DNA of 39,965 nucleotides from a virus. The notes below the pieces were generated by a model. That model saw nothing but the letters and a program-made list of their open reading frames with translations. It was not told the DNA's origin and did not search any database. Position numbers and translations under genes: made by a program. Within the stretch, counting starts at the first letter, position 1. Each line of letters starts with the position of its first letter. This document shows, piece after piece, positions 2,005-22,835 of this stretch. The stretch is taken from the IMG/VR virus record IMGVR_UViG_3300021371_000042, positions 1 through 39,965 of that record. The stretch is one strand, 5' to 3'.

Positions 2005-5000
2005 ATGCCACAGATACAAACCCCAGATGGTCAGGTCTTCAACTTTCCTGACACGATGAGCCGTGCCCAGATAGCTGAGGCACTTCAGCGTAGACTAGGC
2101 AACAAGACGGAACCTCAAGCGCAGCCCCAGCAACAGCAAGCTATAACTCCACAAGATACCTCTATGGGTTCTGCTTTTAAAGTAGCCGATGCCCAATCAC
2201 AGGGTGCGTCTATGTCTGGTACTGCATCCCTTCAGCGCAACCTATCTCAAGGGCCCTTTGGTCAGTTCTTACAGAGTGCCACCGACAACTATGTTAACCC
2301 TATTCGTGAGGGGTTAGGTTTTGATCCTATAGATCGTGACCAAGTAGATGCAGATGCGTCTGCTAGGCTTCAGGCTGGTGCTGATAGAGCCAATGCAGAA
2401 GCTGAAAAGATTGCAGAGGACCTAGACTTCTACAACATGACCACCTCAGACATTAACAGTGTCGGTGACTTTGTTAACTTTATTGGTCAGAAGACAGCCC
2501 AAGCAGCCCCATACATGGGCGCAGCCTTGGCATCAGGCGGTACTCTTACATATCCATTTGCTGTCGGTGAGATCAGCCAAAACCTGTCAGAGATCGAGGG
2601 TTTACCCCAAGAGAAAGCAGACGATATTGCCGCCGCTGGTGGTGCCATCTCAGCTGCCTTAGAAACCCTAGGTATCGCCAAGCTTTTACCTAAAGGTACG
2701 TCTAATAGCATCCTAGGTGGTATTGCGAGCGGTGTAATAACCGAGGGCACAACCGAGGGCCTTCAAGAGCTAGTTAACATCGGATCTGAAGCCGTAGGTG
2801 GTAAGCAGTTTTCAGAAGGTGAAATCCTAAACAGACTGAAAGAGGCTGCAGCTGCGGGTAGTGTTGCTGGTGGTGCCTTCAAAGGTAGTACACAGGCCGC
2901 TTCTAAAGCTAAGAGTTTATTCACCTCTGATGGTAAACTTAACGTAAACAACCTTGATGACCCTACCAAGCTTGCAGCTGGTGATGTCGCTAGACAACTA
3001 CAGCAAATCGCTGCGGCTGAAGGCTTTAATCTTAAAAACGTAAACATCAGTGCACAATTTGGTGCCAAAGGTGCACTAGAAGAAGCTCGCAAGCAGAACA
3101 ATGGTGAAATCACAGAGCTAGTGAAAGCCCTCAAGGGTAAACTGAACAGCAAGAACGCTAAATCTCTTGATCAAGTGTTATCTGACTATGCGCCTGCCAA
3201 TGCTGCAATAAAGCAAGGTAAGAACAAAGTATCTGGATATGTCAACAAGGCAGATATGGCTGCATTAGCTCGCCTGGTGGGTCCTTACCAAGAGGGCGCT
3301 GCCCTCATGAATGCTTTAGCCAAATCTAATGTAATCACCGGGTTGTTCAAAGACGGTATGAAGGGCGGCGTCAGTCAATTCACTGACTACTTCAATCCCC
3401 TTGGCACATCTGGTGCTGTATATGACCCCACACGCCTTGGTAACATTGTCCTTGGTGGTGGTTTAGCCGCAGCCACCCTAGGCCAGTCAGTTCCAATCCA
3501 AGCAGGCATAGTAGGCTTAGGTCGCCTGGTTGATGCAGCCACTGGTCGCCGCAATAAGCTATCAAGGTTCGTCAACAAGAACGTCAACGCACAGGGCCTA
3601 CCCTCGCCATCTGGAGTCTCTCTGGTAGACAAGGCTAAGACAGCTGAATCGGATGCAAAGGTCCGTAGAGAAGCTCTAGCTCGCATAGCCACCCAGATCG
3701 ATGCTCCACCCAACGCCAACTCCCCGGTAGGAACCATCCTGTCTGGCACAGGCCTCTCACGGGATGGTCTCTCTCAGACAATCAACAGTATGGCCCAAGA
3801 CTTCGCAGGCCAACCTGAGTTAGCACCTGTCTTGGAGAGCATCCAACAGAATATGGACGGGGATACCAACCCTGTCTTAGAGCTCAACGAGATCATCCCG
3901 ATCATCGGTCAATACGCCCAGATGACTGCCCCAGAACTCATTGTGGCAACCCCGGACAATCCTCTGTTGGCTCGCGGTGTGCAACAGTCTCCAACGCAGA
4001 CTGATGTACAAACTGAAGCACCTAGTCAGCCCCAGTCTGGCAACCAGTTCACAACCCCAGAGAACTACCAAGCAGGCAAGAGCGACAACAACAGCTTCGC
4101 CAGATCCTTAGCAGCCCAAGTATCCGAAGATGCTGGGGTATCTGTGTCTGACAAAGCGCAGCTGATGACCGCCCTAGAAGACGTACAGTCTAGCCTAGGA
4201 CCAGACCCTGTTGCAGCACTCGATGAGATCACCACAGAGCTCCAGAACATCGGTGTTAACCGGGATGTCATAGACACATACTTCAAGCCTTACAGAGACC
4301 GTGTGGCGCTCCAGCAAGCCCGTGTGGGCCGTATGCAAGCCCCTGAGACTGAGGACAGCCCTAGGTTTTCTATGGGTCCTCAATTTGATTACCGTATGCA
4401 GCACCAACCGTCAGCACCAGAAGATGGTGCAGCACCCCTCTGGGACATGACTGGTAATGGTGAAGTCTTTCCAGATGACATATATTCTCAAAATGGTCTT
4501 AGGTATTACGGTAACCCAAACAGCCAAGCTGACCGTGAATCCTATAAAATTATAACGGAAGTAATGGGTAACCCAGAGGCTGAAGTTACTATCTATAGAG
4601 CAGTCCCTGATGAGGCAGATATAGACACAATTAACCCTGGTGACTTTGTAACCCTCAGTCGTACATATGCTGAACAGCATGGCGAATCTGGCTATGGGCC
4701 TATGGGCGAAGATAGAGGGAAGATCCTATCTAAGAAGGTAAAAGTCAAAGAAGTCTTCTCTGAGGGCAATGACTTAAACGAGTTTGGTTATTTCCCTGAG
4801 ACTGAGGACAGCCCTAGGTTTGCTAGAATAGCGCCTGTCCCGTTTAACAACGATAGAATGCAACAGATGTTTGGGGTCGAGGACCCTACACCTGGCGGTA
4901 ACTATATTGACCTAGATACCAAGGAAGATCTCACAGGTAATACTTATGCAGGCGGTAAGGTTTCTATCGTTGACGGTAAGCCTGTCTTAGATACTAGTGA

Positions 5001-7809
5001 TGACTTCTCTGAGCCAGCCACGAAAGCTGATGGCCGCAAGGTAAAGGTCAACCTATTTAAACAAAAAGCTGGCTGGAAGTGGATTGACTATGATGGCCCA
5101 GCCACCATTGTTTCAACTGAAGTAGGTGGCAAGCACCACTACGCTTTGTCTTCTGACTTCCAGAACCCAGTAACACTTCAGACATACCCCAACCAACCTA
5201 GTGAACCAAGGTTACGCCCGACCACCCAAGGTGAGGTGGAGCTTGGAAACAAGATTGGCAACATCAGTGTCCGAGGGAAGATTCACCCGGTATATGATGA
5301 AGTGCGTATTGTCTCAAAAAGCCCAGAGCGCCCTCAGGTTTCTACAGATGGCCCCCTTCTCAGTATACCAGAGATCCCACGCGGTGAATCTACAAATATA
5401 CAAATGCCTAACCAATTAGGTACAGCCTTTGGTTTTGCTAAAGACTCCAACTTTGCCAAAGGTAGGGACCTTAAACTTGCGCTCCAAGAGAAATCATTGG
5501 CTGCACAGAAAGAAGAAGGTGTAGATTTAACCGAGCTATCTACAGAAAACGTAAGCCGCCTTGCAGATCACGTTGTCTCTGACGCTCTAGAAGCCCTCAA
5601 AGACAACTCAAATGCCATTGGTTGGTATGATCGCACGGTAACTGACGCTCTTAGTAGCCTGTCAGAAATCTACCCAGAGATCCAAACCAACCCAGTTAAC
5701 AAATTGCAGTTCATTTGGGCTCTAGCGGTCACATCTAATGGCACCAAAGTAGATAAGAACTTTGAGTTAGCTGCAAATGCCTACGATACACTGCAAAGAA
5801 CTGGTCGGTTTCCTACAAACATAGGTATTGGGGAGGCAGCTAAAGCAATTAATGGTGGCCTGCAGCAATATCACACAATGCTTGAGAAGTTTGAGCGTCA
5901 AACGAACAGCAACGAAGGTGATCACCAGTTACTTGCTGACTTTATGAACTCTCAAGTCCCCGTTAAGCAGATTGAACAAGAATACAACGTCCAAATCAGT
6001 GGAGAAGGTAAAAATACCTTAGTGCGGGGGGCATCCATCTTAGGTCCTAAGATTGGCAATGGTTTCTTCAGTAATCTCTATGGTAACTTTGATGCTTTAA
6101 CTATGGACCGCTGGCTAATGCGTACAGTTGGCCGTATGCGCGGGTCTTTAGTTAAAATCAACCAGCCAATGGTTAAGAAGAAGAACACAGAGATAAAGTC
6201 TCTCATTTCTAGTGCTGATAAGGATACTCTTAAGTCTTTACGGTCTTATCTAAAGCCATCAGGTATTAAGATTGGTAAAACAATGTCCCAGCGAGACATA
6301 AATGATCTTGCGGCGTACATTGCAAAACAATCTACGTCTAAGGAGTGGCGGGTTGGCTTAAATGGGATATCTGAAGACCTTAGAAAAGCTGGTAATGGGT
6401 TGGCAAAGTATCTTGATGGTCAAGTAGAGGCCCCAGCTGGTGCTAAAGAGCGTGACTTCATCCGCTCTGTGTTTACTGAAGCACTAGGAAGGTTAAACTC
6501 AGAGCCTACAGTGACTAGGGCCTCAAACGCTGGCCTTACGATGAGTGACTTGCAGGCTCTCTTGTGGTATCCAGAAAAGCGCCTATATGATACAGCAAAG
6601 GCCCCCGAAGGTCAGGAAAGCAGAGGATATGCAGATGACGAAGCGCCAGACTACGCAAACGCAGCCCGAAAACTTGTCGAAACAAGGAAAGCAATGGCTG
6701 TCGGAGGTGGACTGGGATCTACTGGAGCAGCTGGACCAGGAGGAAGAGGGCCAGTCGATTCCGATGCAAGATTCAACAGAGAACCCACAGGAGTCGCAGG
6801 CATCCTCGCCCAGCGGATTCAAGGAAGTCCTGATGGACCCACCGCCAGGGGTGCTGTCCCCGGCGTTCAAGAAGTAAAAGGTCACGTAGAACACGCACGG
6901 TCTTTAGTCGAGATAGGTAAGCCCGGATCTCAGTACGAAAATGGCATAAAAGACCAACAAATGGTTGAACATCTAGCTGAGGCTGTCGGCATTACCCTGA
7001 AGATGTTTGATGACCACAACGCTATGCTAGACGATGGTAAAATCGGCGACGATTTCCGAGAAGAAGGTGAGGCCTCTAGTGGTTTTTATAACCGTAAAGA
7101 AAACACAGCAAGAGCCTTGCTACCAGGCACCGAGGTAATTGCCACAAGTAAGATAGTAAATTCTTTTGATTCCTACATTACTGCACTTCATGAGGTTGCT
7201 CATGGTATTGCTGGTCGAGACATTGAGGGAAACTTAACTGGTACATATGATATCGGTAAAAACTATCTTACTGGCCGTAAGGATGCTGCACCCGTAGATA
7301 CCTTAGAGATAATGATTGGCGGCTTCATTACTATGCCAAACGCAAAGAAGCGTAAGATTGTCCAAGAGATTATGTCTTTGCAAGATGATAGCGCCTACGA
7401 CAATGGTGGTTCTAATTATCGACCAGTGAGGCCGACAGGCCCTGCTAAACTACGCCTTGCAGAAATGAAACCTGGGCTTGCAAAAAACAAGTTTAGGGAT
7501 CGCATTAAGAACTTTGAGAAATACTCTCGCAGCGTCCCAGAGTTTACTGTCGATCCTCTCATCATGTATCTTCAAGATCCTAGGAAGATGAAGAGCGTTG
7601 CACCTGAGACAGCCAAAGCTATTAGGGCCTTCTTTGTGAATAGCTCTAAGATCCGCTTCTACAGCCACCCACTAGCGATGGCCTTTGCTGTCGTTATGGC
7701 AATGCTCATGAAGCAAGAGCAAGCTGAAGAAGAGCAAGAACGCCAGAAGCAACAACAGATGGCACCAGGGGCTCTAACGCCCCCACCGGGCGCACTATCA
7801 GCCGCCTAA
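2005..7809 (+). CDS. Giant polyvalent internal virion protein with ADP-ribosyltransferase-like and HExxH metallopeptidase domains
   Basis: The 1934-residue protein starts 2 bases after the preceding stop. Its first 32 residues carry the 'TPDGQVFNFPD...' type motif that often opens large phage ejection proteins. Residues about 165-275 hold hydrophobic Gly/Ala-rich helices. Residues about 850-930 resemble the ADP-ribosyltransferase (ART) domain of polyvalent proteins: YRAV with Arg865, a following Ser-rich strand, and GNDLNEFGY with Glu926 as the candidate catalytic Glu. Residues about 1130-1400 form a conserved helical region with a 'GPKIGNGFFSNLYGNFD' signature that I have seen in similar giant phage proteins. 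Residues 1729-1733 are HEVAH, a zincin HExxH motif. The C-terminus has a hydrophobic helix followed by a Gln/Glu-rich tail. It probably travels in the virion and enters the host with the DNA, where the enzymatic domains could act on host proteins. The domain calls come from motifs and the delivery role is inferred. Confidence 0.72.
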   Translation: MPQIQTPDGQVFNFPDTMSRAQIAEALQRRLGNKTEPQAQPQQQQAITPQDTSMGSAFKVADAQSQGASMSGTASLQRNLSQGPFGQFLQSATDNYVNPIREGLGFDPIDRDQVDADASARLQAGADRANAEAEKIAEDLDFYNMTTSDINSVGDFVNFIGQKTAQAAPYMGAALASGGTLTYPFAVGEISQNLSEIEGLPQEKADDIAAAGGAISAALETLGIAKLLPKGTSNSILGGIASGVITEGTTEGLQELVNIGSEAVGGKQFSEGEILNRLKEAAAAGSVAGGAFKGSTQAASKAKSLFTSDGKLNVNNLDDPTKLAAGDVARQLQQIAAAEGFNLKNVNISAQFGAKGALEEARKQNNGEITELVKALKGKLNSKNAKSLDQVLSDYAPANAAIKQGKNKVSGYVNKADMAALARLVGPYQEGAALMNALAKSNVITGLFKDGMKGGVSQFTDYFNPLGTSGAVYDPTRLGNIVLGGGLAAATLGQSVPIQAGIVGLGRLVDAATGRRNKLSRFVNKNVNAQGLPSPSGVSLVDKAKTAESDAKVRREALARIATQIDAPPNANSPVGTILSGTGLSRDGLSQTINSMAQDFAGQPELAPVLESIQQNMDGDTNPVLELNEIIPIIGQYAQMTAPELIVATPDNPLLARGVQQSPTQTDVQTEAPSQPQSGNQFTTPENYQAGKSDNNSFARSLAAQVSEDAGVSVSDKAQLMTALEDVQSSLGPDPVAALDEITTELQNIGVNRDVIDTYFKPYRDRVALQQARVGRMQAPETEDSPRFSMGPQFDYRMQHQPSAPEDGAAPLWDMTGNGEVFPDDIYSQNGLRYYGNPNSQADRESYKIITEVMGNPEAEVTIYRAVPDEADIDTINPGDFVTLSRTYAEQHGESGYGPMGEDRGKILSKKVKVKEVFSEGNDLNEFGYFPETEDSPRFARIAPVPFNNDRMQQMFGVEDPTPGGNYIDLDTKEDLTGNTYAGGKVSIVDGKPVLDTSDDFSEPATKADGRKVKVNLFKQKAGWKWIDYDGPATIVSTEVGGKHHYALSSDFQNPVTLQTYPNQPSEPRLRPTTQGEVELGNKIGNISVRGKIHPVYDEVRIVSKSPERPQVSTDGPLLSIPEIPRGESTNIQMPNQLGTAFGFAKDSNFAKGRDLKLALQEKSLAAQKEEGVDLTELSTENVSRLADHVVSDALEALKDNSNAIGWYDRTVTDALSSLSEIYPEIQTNPVNKLQFIWALAVTSNGTKVDKNFELAANAYDTLQRTGRFPTNIGIGEAAKAINGGLQQYHTMLEKFERQTNSNEGDHQLLADFMNSQVPVKQIEQEYNVQISGEGKNTLVRGASILGPKIGNGFFSNLYGNFDALTMDRWLMRTVGRMRGSLVKINQPMVKKKNTEIKSLISSADKDTLKSLRSYLKPSGIKIGKTMSQRDINDLAAYIAKQSTSKEWRVGLNGISEDLRKAGNGLAKYLDGQVEAPAGAKERDFIRSVFTEALGRLNSEPTVTRASNAGLTMSDLQALLWYPEKRLYDTAKAPEGQESRGYADDEAPDYANAARKLVETRKAMAVGGGLGSTGAAGPGGRGPVDSDARFNREPTGVAGILAQRIQGSPDGPTARGAVPGVQEVKGHVEHARSLVEIGKPGSQYENGIKDQQMVEHLAEAVGITLKMFDDHNAMLDDGKIGDDFREEGEASSGFYNRKENTARALLPGTEVIATSKIVNSFDSYITALHEVAHGIAGRDIEGNLTGTYDIGKNYLTGRKDAAPVDTLEIMIGGFITMPNAKKRKIVQEIMSLQDDSAYDNGGSNYRPVRPTGPAKLRLAEMKPGLAKNKFRDRIKNFEKYSRSVPEFTVDPLIMYLQDPRKMKSVAPETAKAIRAFFVNSSKIRFYSHPLAMAFAVVMAMLMKQEQAEEEQERQKQQQMAPGALTPPPGALSAA
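4341..4368 (+). repeat. 28-bp direct repeat, copy 1, upstream of the ART domain
   Basis: These 28 bases are identical to 4794-4821. Both copies are read in the same frame and encode PETEDSPRF. The repeats flank the ADP-ribosyltransferase-like segment, and the repeat period is 453 bp, exactly 151 codons. Confidence 0.95.
4794..4821 (+). repeat. 28-bp direct repeat, copy 2, downstream of the ART domain
   Basis: Exact copy of 4341-4368 at the 3' edge of the ADP-ribosyltransferase-like segment. It encodes the same PETEDSPRF linker in frame, so recombination between the copies would remove the domain without breaking the gene. Confidence 0.95.
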
Positions 7810-13520: not shown

Positions 13521-14646
13521 ATGGCTACCTATACTACATACAACCAAGTCGGCCGCGCCGAAGACGTCAGTGATATCATAAGTGATATTACACCCACAGA
13601 CACTCCAATGTTCAGCATGATGAAAACTGAGAAGGTTTCAGCACGTAACTTTGAGTGGCTTGAGGATTCATTGGCTGCAGCGGCTAACAACGCTCAAGTT
13701 GAAGGGGCAGATGCTTCAATGGCAACATTGACTGCAGCTACTTCACGCACGAATCAATGCCAGATTCTGCATAAGGCCTTCCAAATTAGTGCAACAGCCG
13801 ACCAGATTAAAACCTATGGTAGAGCGAAAGAGACCGCATATCAACTTGGCCGTGCACTTAAGGAAATCAAGCGCGATTTGGAACGGGCTTTGATTGGCGT
13901 GGACAACGCTGCAGTAGCTGGCGATGCCTCTACAGCGCGTGAGATGGCTTCGATCTCTCAACAGATCTCAACTACAGTAGACGCGGGTTCTAACTCAACC
14001 GATGCGTTGACTGAAGCTAAACTGCTTGAGCTAGGCGAAGACTGCTTCAACAACGGGTCTGACCCAAGTGTACTCATGATTAAACCAGCTGACGCCCAAA
14101 TCGTTGCTGGCTTTGCGGCATCTTCTGGTCGCAACCGTGAGTTTGCGCAGGGTAAATCCTTGGTGAACGTGATTGATCTGTACGTTGAAGTGGCTAGCGT
14201 ACATTAAACCTGGTGAATTCAGGGGAAGCCTAAGTCGAAAGATATGGTAATCCTGAGCCAAGCCCCAAGAGGGGAAGGTGCAACGACTATTCCGCGAGGA
14301 AGTACACCCAAGTGGGTGGAAGCGCCAGGCACTGCAAATAGTAGTGATGATATAGTCTCATCTCATGTGAAAGCATGAGCAGTCGAAAGACGGTCTAAGG
14401 TTAACGCCCTTAGGCGAAGATCCGTGTAGCCCATACGGAGAATACAAAGTGGTCTTGAACCGCCACCAGTTGACTACACATGCCTTCTTGATCGACCCAT
14501 CGATGTTCAAGACATGTGTGCTGCGTCCATTCTCACGCACACTGTTGGCTTCAGCTGGCGACAGCGAGAAGCATTTTGTGGTCGGAGAGTACTCTTGTAA
14601 GCACTCTAACTTCTCAGATTCTGGGATGATCACAGGCTTGTCATAA
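13521..14646 (+). CDS. Major capsid protein, split by a group I intron (join 13521-14185, 14430-14646)
   Basis: Exon 1 (665 nt) and exon 2 (217 nt) join to an 882-nt frame of 293 residues. The family looks like the SU10-type HK97-fold capsid (DUF5309). Recognised segments are the early 'TPTDTPMFSMM', 'EGADASMATLTAATSRTNQCQI' in part, 'GRAKETAYQLGRALKEIKRDLERAL', and 'NGSDPSVLMIKP'. The junction reads DLYV-PYGEYKVVLNR, as expected in this family. Without splicing, translation ends at a TAA inside the intron after 228 residues and loses the conserved C-terminal strands. The Shine-Dalgarno is AAAGGAGTAGCC. A large terminator follows the gene, as after T7 gene 10. The exon borders were set by reading frame, P1 pairing and family alignment together. 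Confidence 0.9.
14186..14429 (+). ncRNA. Group I self-splicing intron in the capsid gene, 244 nt, no ORF
   Basis: The core contains GGTAATCCTGAGCCAAGCC (about 14246-14264), very close to the P-Q core of cyanobacterial and plastid tRNA-Leu introns, and GATATAGTC, the usual S element. Visible pairings are: P1, TGTACG 14179-14184 with CGTACA 14198-14203, with U14185 opposite G14197 as the obligatory U-G at the 5' splice site; P2, CCTG/CAGG; P5, CCCC/GGGG at 14263-14274; P7, GACTAT 14285-14290 with ATAGTC 14352-14357; P8, CACCC/GGGTG at 14305-14318; P9, CTCATG/CATGAG at 14362-14379; and two further 3' hairpins (14382-14391, 14395-14413). The intron ends in G14429. It encodes no endonuclease. P3 was not resolved by eye. 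Confidence 0.92.
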
Positions 14647-22240: not shown

Positions 22241-22428
22241 CTTGCAATTGCATAACCTACGTTGACGATAGCCGCTGGGGTAACGCCATTACCGTCACCG
22301 AATACTGTCGTGTCTGCAGCCTAGATAGCTACCAGACCACCTTGAGCCGCGATGAGGCTATAGACCAGATACTCAAGGATGCTGCCTGGGATACACACAG
22401 GGATACACACAACGTCATAACGTCATAA
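22237..22428 (+). CDS. Small Cys-containing hypothetical protein
   Basis: A 63-residue protein coupled to the previous gene. It contains CNC at residues 3-5 and CRVC near residues 24-27, a possible metal site, then an acidic helix 'SRDEAIDQILKDA'. The 3' end has short tandem duplications (GGATACACACA twice, then ACGTCATA twice, 22389-22427), so its C-terminus may be length-variable. Its stop touches the 20-bp repeat that precedes the GIY-YIG gene. No family recognised. Confidence 0.55.
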   Translation: MTCNCITYVDDSRWGNAITVTEYCRVCSLDSYQTTLSRDEAIDQILKDAAWDTHRDTHNVITS

Positions 22429-22447
22429 GTTGGGAGACTTACAGATG
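22428..22447 (+). repeat. 20-bp direct repeat, copy 1, at the start of the GIY-YIG gene
   Basis: Identical to 22816-22835. It contains the Shine-Dalgarno GGGAG and the ATG of the downstream gene. The two copies flank the GIY-YIG gene exactly. Confidence 0.95.
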
Positions 22448-22816
22448 GACTTATGTGAACGATCAACTGAAATCAAAAGTAAATACAAGTACCTCTACAT
22501 AATTAAGTGCCGTGAGGACGATAGCGTTTTAAAGGTGGGCATAAGTAAGCACCCCAAAGGTAGGCTTCGTTCTTTACAGTCTGCCTCATGGAATGAGTTA
22601 TTCATCTGGGCTTATTTTGGGATGTACTCTGAAAAGGACTGTTTTCAATTAGAGCAACGTATCCACTCAAAACTTAGAAAGCATAGTATCCGTGGTGAGT
22701 GGTTCAGAGTTCAGCCTCATTTCATATGGAAGATATTAGATACATCACACTGTGTATTTTTAGATGGCTTTGGTTCCGTTGAGATGACCGAAGACGATGT
22801 TTTACCTTGTCACTAG
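22445..22816 (+). CDS. GIY-YIG nuclease of the T5orf172/MUG113 type, probable mobile gene
   Basis: A 123-residue protein from the ATG at 22445, which sits 9 bases after GGGAG. Motifs in order: YLYIIKC (the GIY strand), LKVGISKHPKGRLRSLQ (the YIG-equivalent with the catalytic Arg), 'EKDCFQLEQRIHSKL' and 'RGEWFRV' with the expected Glu. This fits a compact GIY-YIG endonuclease of the T5orf172/MUG113 group. One sampled 60-base line of the gene has 20 G+C against 34 in the integrase by hand count, so it differs from its neighbours. It is flanked by 20-bp direct repeats that include the ribosome binding site, as if inserted between the previous gene and the integrase. It may be a free-standing homing endonuclease. 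Confidence 0.8.
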   Translation: MDLCERSTEIKSKYKYLYIIKCREDDSVLKVGISKHPKGRLRSLQSASWNELFIWAYFGMYSEKDCFQLEQRIHSKLRKHSIRGEWFRVQPHFIWKILDTSHCVFLDGFGSVEMTEDDVLPCH

Positions 22817-22835
22817 TTGGGAGACTTACAGATGA
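22816..22835 (+). repeat. 20-bp direct repeat, copy 2, at the start of the integrase gene
   Basis: Identical to 22428-22447, and carries the GGGAG and ATG used by the integrase gene. Confidence 0.95.

Follow-up and report, generated by a model that had tools for sequence, protein, structure and literature searches.

A predicted self-splicing group IA2 intron in the SU10-type major capsid gene of an uncultured phage, and related introns at further sites of the same gene

Introns within phage capsid genes have been described previously. The capsid-gene intron of LittleE is spliced, as demonstrated by RT-PCR and N-terminal sequencing (PMC3706429), and a passage of the same paper cites splicing of the capsid intron of the lactococcal phage Tuc2009, whilst in crAss-like phages several introns are possible within one major capsid protein (MCP) gene (PMC7886860). 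A 2025 study reported that phage group I introns prefer genes of nucleotide and DNA metabolism, a preference it termed mysterious (PMC12350094), and the presence of P7.1 and P7.2 joined by GUA has placed a phage intron in subgroup IA2 (PMC3428280). The novelty that an initial annotation of the DNA studied here had implied for a capsid-gene intron does not stand, since LittleE, Tuc2009 (PMC3706429) and the crAss-like MCP genes (PMC7886860) precede it, and the designation of a first capsid intron is ruled out by these published cases. Within the open-access literature, no report was found of a capsid-focused intron lineage or of this SU10 hotspot.

The locus resides in IMGVR_UViG_3300021371_000042, a single IMG/VR virus record of 39,965 bases that was analysed as a whole and is hereafter referred to as the window. 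The window encodes a terminase, portal, scaffold, single-subunit RNA polymerase, primase-helicase, DNA polymerase, ribonucleotide reductase and integrase, with Roseobacter phage CRP-7 being the top match of the terminase (40%). A GTDB scan for relatives of the capsid gene retrieved four loci in all, the nearest of which (77% identical) was found on a Gammaproteobacteria MAG contig, possibly one of viral origin.

The capsid frame opens at 13521 and, if unspliced, terminates after 228 codons at a UAA (14205-14207) inside an insert, the premature stop having been recognised in the initial annotation. The features of the gene, its intron and the intron's helices are as follows.

13521..14185, plus strand: MCP exon 1 (codons 1-221 plus 2 nt); Pfam SU10_MCP PF17236
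14186..14426, plus strand: predicted group IA2 intron, ORF-less, 241 nt, beginning UGAAG and ending in omega-G G14426; RF00028, intronless alleles, P10
14427..14646, plus strand: MCP exon 2, ending in TAA; V-S-PYGEYK...GLS* frame, with the same register in intronless relatives
14179..14203, plus strand: P1, UGUACGU (14179-14185) with GCGUACA (14197-14203); sequence and MFE fold; 7 pairs in all site-665 introns
14192..14196, plus strand: P10, IGS half GGCUA; pairs with UAGCC (14427-14431) and covaries with exon 2
14209..14329, plus strand: P3, CCUGGUG (14209-14215) with CGCCAGG (14323-14329); MFE fold, four pairs with double changes
14219..14256, plus strand: P4 (14219-14224 with 14251-14256) and P5 (14228-14230 with 14246-14248); Rfam, covariation, fold
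14257..14280, plus strand: P6/P6a; Rfam, covariation, fold
14285..14357, plus strand: P7, the G-binding site, GACUA (14285-14289) with UAGUC (14353-14357); sequence at the conserved Rfam P7 positions
14290..14304, plus strand: P7.1, UUCC-GCGA-GGAA (14290-14301), and linker GUA (14302-14304); fold, covariation
14305..14318, plus strand: P7.2, CACCC-AAGU-GGGUG, after the GUA linker; fold, covariation
14330..14346, plus strand: P8, CACUGC-AAAUA-GUAGUG; covariation, fold
14362..14415, plus strand: P9 (14362-14379), P9.1 (14382-14391) and P9.2 (14393-14415); covariation, fold

The search with the Rfam group I intron model that the initial annotation had proposed returned a single match in the window (RF00028; 14104-14379, 98.3 bits relative to a gathering score of 50, E 7e-26), which spanned the whole model (1-253). 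The match begins at 14104, upstream of the intron start at 14186, only because the alignment pulled the model's variable 5' part into exon 1. No plus-strand ORF of at least 60 aa was located wholly inside 14186-14426 and, together with the Rfam score, this upholds the original proposal of a group I intron without an ORF inside the MCP gene. The MFE fold had an energy of -93.5 kcal/mol (z = -4.15), and RNA folding alone yielded P1, P3-P6, P7.1, P7.2, P8, P9, P9.1 and P9.2. RNAalifold, applied to 36 introns, showed that 36 of the 51 consensus pairs carry double changes, and both RF00028 and this covariation identify the conserved catalytic core P3-P8 by which group I introns are recognised.

Only five unpaired bases separate P1 from P3, and the P2 that had been listed amongst the visible elements is therefore not present. 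Judged by its P7.1-GUA-P7.2 arrangement and the lack of P2, the intron belongs to subgroup IA2. Introns of subgroup IC3 (the tRNA-Leu type) are not known to have a P7.1/P7.2 extension; since both helices are present and covarying in the window, the earlier suggestion of kinship to tRNA-Leu introns was rejected.

A first IMG/VR protein scan retrieved 80 loci, in most of which the capsid gene was uninterrupted. The intronless loci L002-L007 were 93-96% identical in DNA to the window's spliced coding sequence (CDS), with the differences being densest within 10 nt of the junction. In L002, six differences fall within the 10-nt interval that spans the junction (CDS 660-669), none of them protein-changing and including a TCT/AGC serine swap, whilst CDS nt 625-740 was otherwise identical. 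The window's intron was also found in two other contigs (L059/L082/L206 and L083/L209), and with such intronless relatives and recurrences the MCP insert is far beyond chance. The L059 intron had 2 differences from that of the window over 241 nt, and exon changes relative to the window were mostly synonymous (43:6 codons in L059, 27:6 in L002 and 41:8 in L006). At site 665, the introns of L244, L246 and L249 were 94-97% identical to the window's and that of L181 93%, whereas the exons of these four loci beyond the first 10 nt were mostly about 60-80% identical. As introns of 93-97% identity thus reside amid much more diverged exons, with flanks that changed along with the intron, these introns move; we take the pattern to mean that introns recently moved horizontally into the same site, accompanied by short co-conversion.

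A second scan, with a 102-residue protein stretch (about residues 120-222) that excludes most of the intron sites, demonstrated that the window's intron is not a solitary case. The 80 nearest loci contained 54 distinct full-length MCP genes, of which 27 carried at least one intron, not counting the intron at nt 19 described below; 19 genes had one, four had two, two had three and two had four. A total of 69 distinct introns of 239-308 nt were mapped, to CDS nt 56, 68, 75, 152, 167, 259, 319, 347, 665 and 673 (the single cases at nt 347, 68 and 167 being the least secure, and nt 68 possibly a shifted call), and their removal restored the conserved protein. Site 319 was set by motif and reading frame in L229, L230, L250, L252, L276 and the C72C1-like loci, and the mapped set excludes L105, L086 and one additional event in L133. 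Four introns within one MCP gene were found in L216, L218 and L279/L085. One more intron beyond the 69 was read by hand at CDS nt 19 of L258 (record G019), whose nt-19 and nt-319 introns (about 2100-2380 and 2687-2959) have the common guide GCGUAGU, a possible jump between sites of similar sequence. In Phage C72C1 (L001, OQ984150), GenBank lists two 'major head protein' fragments at 3665-4866, which seem to be two parts of a single gene, interrupted by an intron of ~251 nt at the position equivalent to CDS nt 319.

When RF00028 was searched over 31 virus records, matches in this phage group coincided with MCP introns. Because the partial contigs had been chosen for holding an MCP gene, the long records alone bear on gene preference: six of them, 31-40 kb in length (G000, G009, G010, G013, G014 and G028), had introns in the MCP gene alone, and no RF00028 match was obtained anywhere in four records of 39-42 kb with an uninterrupted MCP gene (G021, G025, G026 and G027). 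On a tree of the 69 introns, the site label changed 14 times, where shuffling gave 39 on average and the minimum is 9. The introns thus group by site and mostly stay at their site, with repeated jumps, though individual jumps are unclaimed because many inner branches of the tree are weakly supported. We regard the window's intron as a member of a mobile lineage that has invaded the MCP gene again and again, in most cases at allelic sites and now and then at new ones whose sequence suits the guide.

The window's intron has no endonuclease inside it, and the other mapped introns are, at 239-308 nt, too short for a usual one. Across 22-28 related records, the HNH_3, HNH, LAGLIDADG_3 and NUMOD4 profiles gave no match above cut-off, and the GIY-YIG and T5orf172 profiles matched only at 22487-22738 of the window, making this T5orf172/GIY-YIG-like ORF the sole, distant endonuclease candidate in these records. 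The ORF (22430-22813) lies upstream of the integrase, and a direct repeat of 26 nt (22422-22447 and 22809-22834, 92% identical) brackets it and includes the start of both ORFs; just upstream is a perfect 12-nt tandem duplication, GGGATACACACA (22388-22411). Searches of 21 related records, fragments among them, did not turn up the ORF, and with its flanking repeat it looks like a recent insertion.

The lack of an endonuclease in the window's intron, the failure to find one in most related records, the concentration of the introns in late capsid genes and the fit of the L258 guide to both nt 19 (ACUACGU) and nt 319 (ACUGCGU) would agree with spread at the RNA level, in which the intron would reverse-splice via its guide into abundant late capsid mRNA and then be copied and recombined. 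However, reverse splicing alone leaves unexplained the ~10-nt exon flanks that change along with the intron, and no reverse transcriptase is known for such a route in such phages; we therefore regard this route as rather unlikely. Homing at double-strand breaks made by an endonuclease in trans, for example from a co-infecting phage, with short co-conversion, is tentatively put forward as the most likely route, ahead of reverse splicing.

The distribution of the same intron core in other genes and phages was surveyed with a pattern taken from the capsid introns, which matched at least 120 IMG/VR loci on contigs that were not de-replicated. Among the matches listed, an SU10-type MCP was present on 40 of 120 loci, 35 of these with a mapped MCP insertion. 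In 37 more of the 120, an ORF that runs into the intron or emerges from it fell in a cluster matching other major head families (PHROGs 267, 3437, 27239, 1357, 334, 283, 371, 10, 9953 and others), as assigned via the cluster representative and in some cases on one side only. Hence, the core was in or beside MCP genes of several families in about 77 of the 120 contigs among the matches listed, with tail sheath, terminase, primase-helicase, RNA polymerase and tape measure genes as the minor hosts. The control pattern GAGCCAAGC...AAGGTTCAGAGACTA gave zero matches. Of 119 loci with a sister core variant (control pattern GCCAAGC...AAGGTTCAACGACTA), 12 had an SU10-type MCP on them; among 90 ORFs, memberships in the other head families listed, which overlap, came to 25 at the most. 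The capsid share there is smaller, at roughly a quarter to a third, and HNH or LAGLIDADG neighbours of the sister-core introns were numerous. As contigs were not de-replicated and the pattern derived from capsid introns, the capsid preference constitutes a strong lead and not a measured rate.

In cultured phages, similar cores were found under DNA polymerase, thymidylate synthase, terminase and endonuclease annotations. In seven contigs (L094, L098, L103, L104, L107, L145 and L200), a homing-endonuclease ORF lies on one side of the core and an ATPase-like ORF (PHROG 1297) on the other, a separate non-capsid niche of the same intron family. In L108, an ORF with HNH-like features, as seen by eye, is situated just downstream of this family's core (5629-6042), and the intron could be an endonuclease-bearing relative. 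The initial annotation had named terminase, polymerase and ribonucleotide reductase genes as the usual targets of phage introns, which agrees with the published survey (PMC12350094) but does not describe the nearest relatives of this intron, which mostly reside within or next to capsid genes. There is an even chance, in our estimation, that capsid genes are the main home of a small, mostly endonuclease-free IA2 lineage that invades one and the same gene at some ten sites, with up to four copies within a single capsid gene of fewer than 900 coding bases, that is present in or next to several capsid families unrelated in sequence, and whose spread needs no intron-borne endonuclease.

The 5' splice site of the window's intron was placed as in the initial annotation, with U14185, the last base of exon 1, opposite G14197 at the end of the 7-bp P1 (UGUACGU/GCGUACA). 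The intron end had been put at G14429 (244 nt), 3 nt too far downstream; an end between G14426 and U14427, for an intron of 241 nt, fits instead. A tblastn search, with a query spliced as initially proposed and so without a residue after V222, revealed a Ser (73) or Thr (6) codon after V222 in 79 of 79 relatives aligned over the junction. Amongst the four in-frame candidate G's, only 14426 has an adjacent P10, of 5 bp (GGCUA 14192-14196 with UAGCC 14427-14431) and directly beside the U.G pair. As V-S-P and a perfect 5-bp P10 are both restored only at the G14426/U14427 boundary, G14426 was taken as the 3' splice site. Exon 1 thus ends in a U.G pair in P1, the intron ends in G and a P10 forms on exon 2, as is expected of group I introns. 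The claim that splicing restores the C-terminus held, but the junction is DLYV-S-PYGEYK, as in the 79 relatives, and not DLYV/PYGEYK. Splicing of the same intron between G14429 and C14430, to give DLYV-PYGEYK, would likewise use a guanosine and keep the frame, yet it drops the conserved Ser/Thr and has no adjacent P10; it is very improbable, and 14429 was ruled out as the 3' site by the relatives and P10.

The spliced protein matched SU10_MCP PF17236 (DUF5309-like) almost end to end (E 3e-77; profile 7-291 of 292), in a search that used the protein spliced at 14429, the corrected protein being one residue longer. Guides also proved to be fitted to their own exons: over 48 non-redundant guide/exon sets, the mean runs with own exons were 6.08 for P1 and 4.31 for P10, and with the exons of other sites swapped in 2.65 (sd 0.21) and 2.74 (sd 0.13), a contrast slightly inflated because the choice of site used P1 and P10 as minor score terms. 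At site 665 the guide covaries with exon 2 (GGCUA/UAGCC, GACUA/UAGUC and ACUG/CAGU). In the proposed mechanism, P1 and P10, formed from one internal guide sequence, would hold both exons side by side; exogenous guanosine would attack after U14185, which would in turn attack after G14426, joining GU to U AGC CCA (V-S-P) and restoring a capsid protein of 294 residues. The predicted spliced RNA would read ...CUGUACGU joined to UAGCCCAU..., with the cDNA junction GUUAGCCC and the junction peptides DLYVSPYGEYK and VNVIDLYVSPYGEYK; splicing at the initially proposed site would instead read ...CGU joined to CCCAUA.

We are highly confident that this SU10-type MCP gene is interrupted by a functional, self-splicing group IA2 intron that encodes no endonuclease of its own; this confidence applies to the intron and its splicing and not to the homing route. 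Splicing, its efficiency and its timing late in infection are predictions. Given that the contigs are metagenomic, the intron might be a degenerate one that splices inefficiently in a defective phage or a minority allele; this is most unlikely, as every core element is intact and the L059 intron has changed at only 2 of 241 nt while its exons diverged, mostly synonymously. That the insert stays unspliced, the capsid ending early at 228 aa or the gene being read by ribosomal bypassing, is barely credible, for although the frame is open to the UAA at 14205-14207, the group I core is complete and covarying, guides are fitted to each exon site, exon 2 is kept as coding sequence in exact register and further sites in the same MCP gene show the same behaviour.

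With its relatives, the intron forms a large related set with an apparent preference for capsid genes, unlike the known preference for metabolism genes, and some members have close intronless alleles. The causes of intron target choice thereby become testable, the candidates being guide fit, endonuclease cutting, transcript abundance and protection by an essential gene. Capsid genes in two to five pieces, such as that of C72C1, are also easily missed, and capsid-based environmental surveys are therefore biased.

In comparison with known systems, the window's intron resembles the Pf-WMP3 DNA polymerase intron (PMC3428280) in its U.G pair in P1, lack of P2, P7.1-GUA-P7.2 arrangement, P10 of 4-5 bp and terminal G, but it has no endonuclease ORF and resides in a capsid rather than a polymerase gene. 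With mycobacteriophage LittleE (PMC3706429) it has in common an intron in the major capsid gene, the splicing being efficient in LittleE and predicted to be so in the window. The LittleE intron differs in being 820 nt long, in having an endonuclease ORF on the other strand, in belonging to an unrelated phage and in being 'most likely' group I (PMC3706429). Several group I introns per MCP gene are also a feature of crAss-like phages, which are large gut phages whose introns were found mainly via endonuclease domains (PMC7886860), whereas the window's group comprises phages of roughly 40 kb with small introns that have no endonuclease. The Phage C72C1 record (OQ984150), in which the MCP is divergent and the intron unannotated, holds an intron core 83.6% identical to that of the window, at CDS site 319 of the same MCP family.
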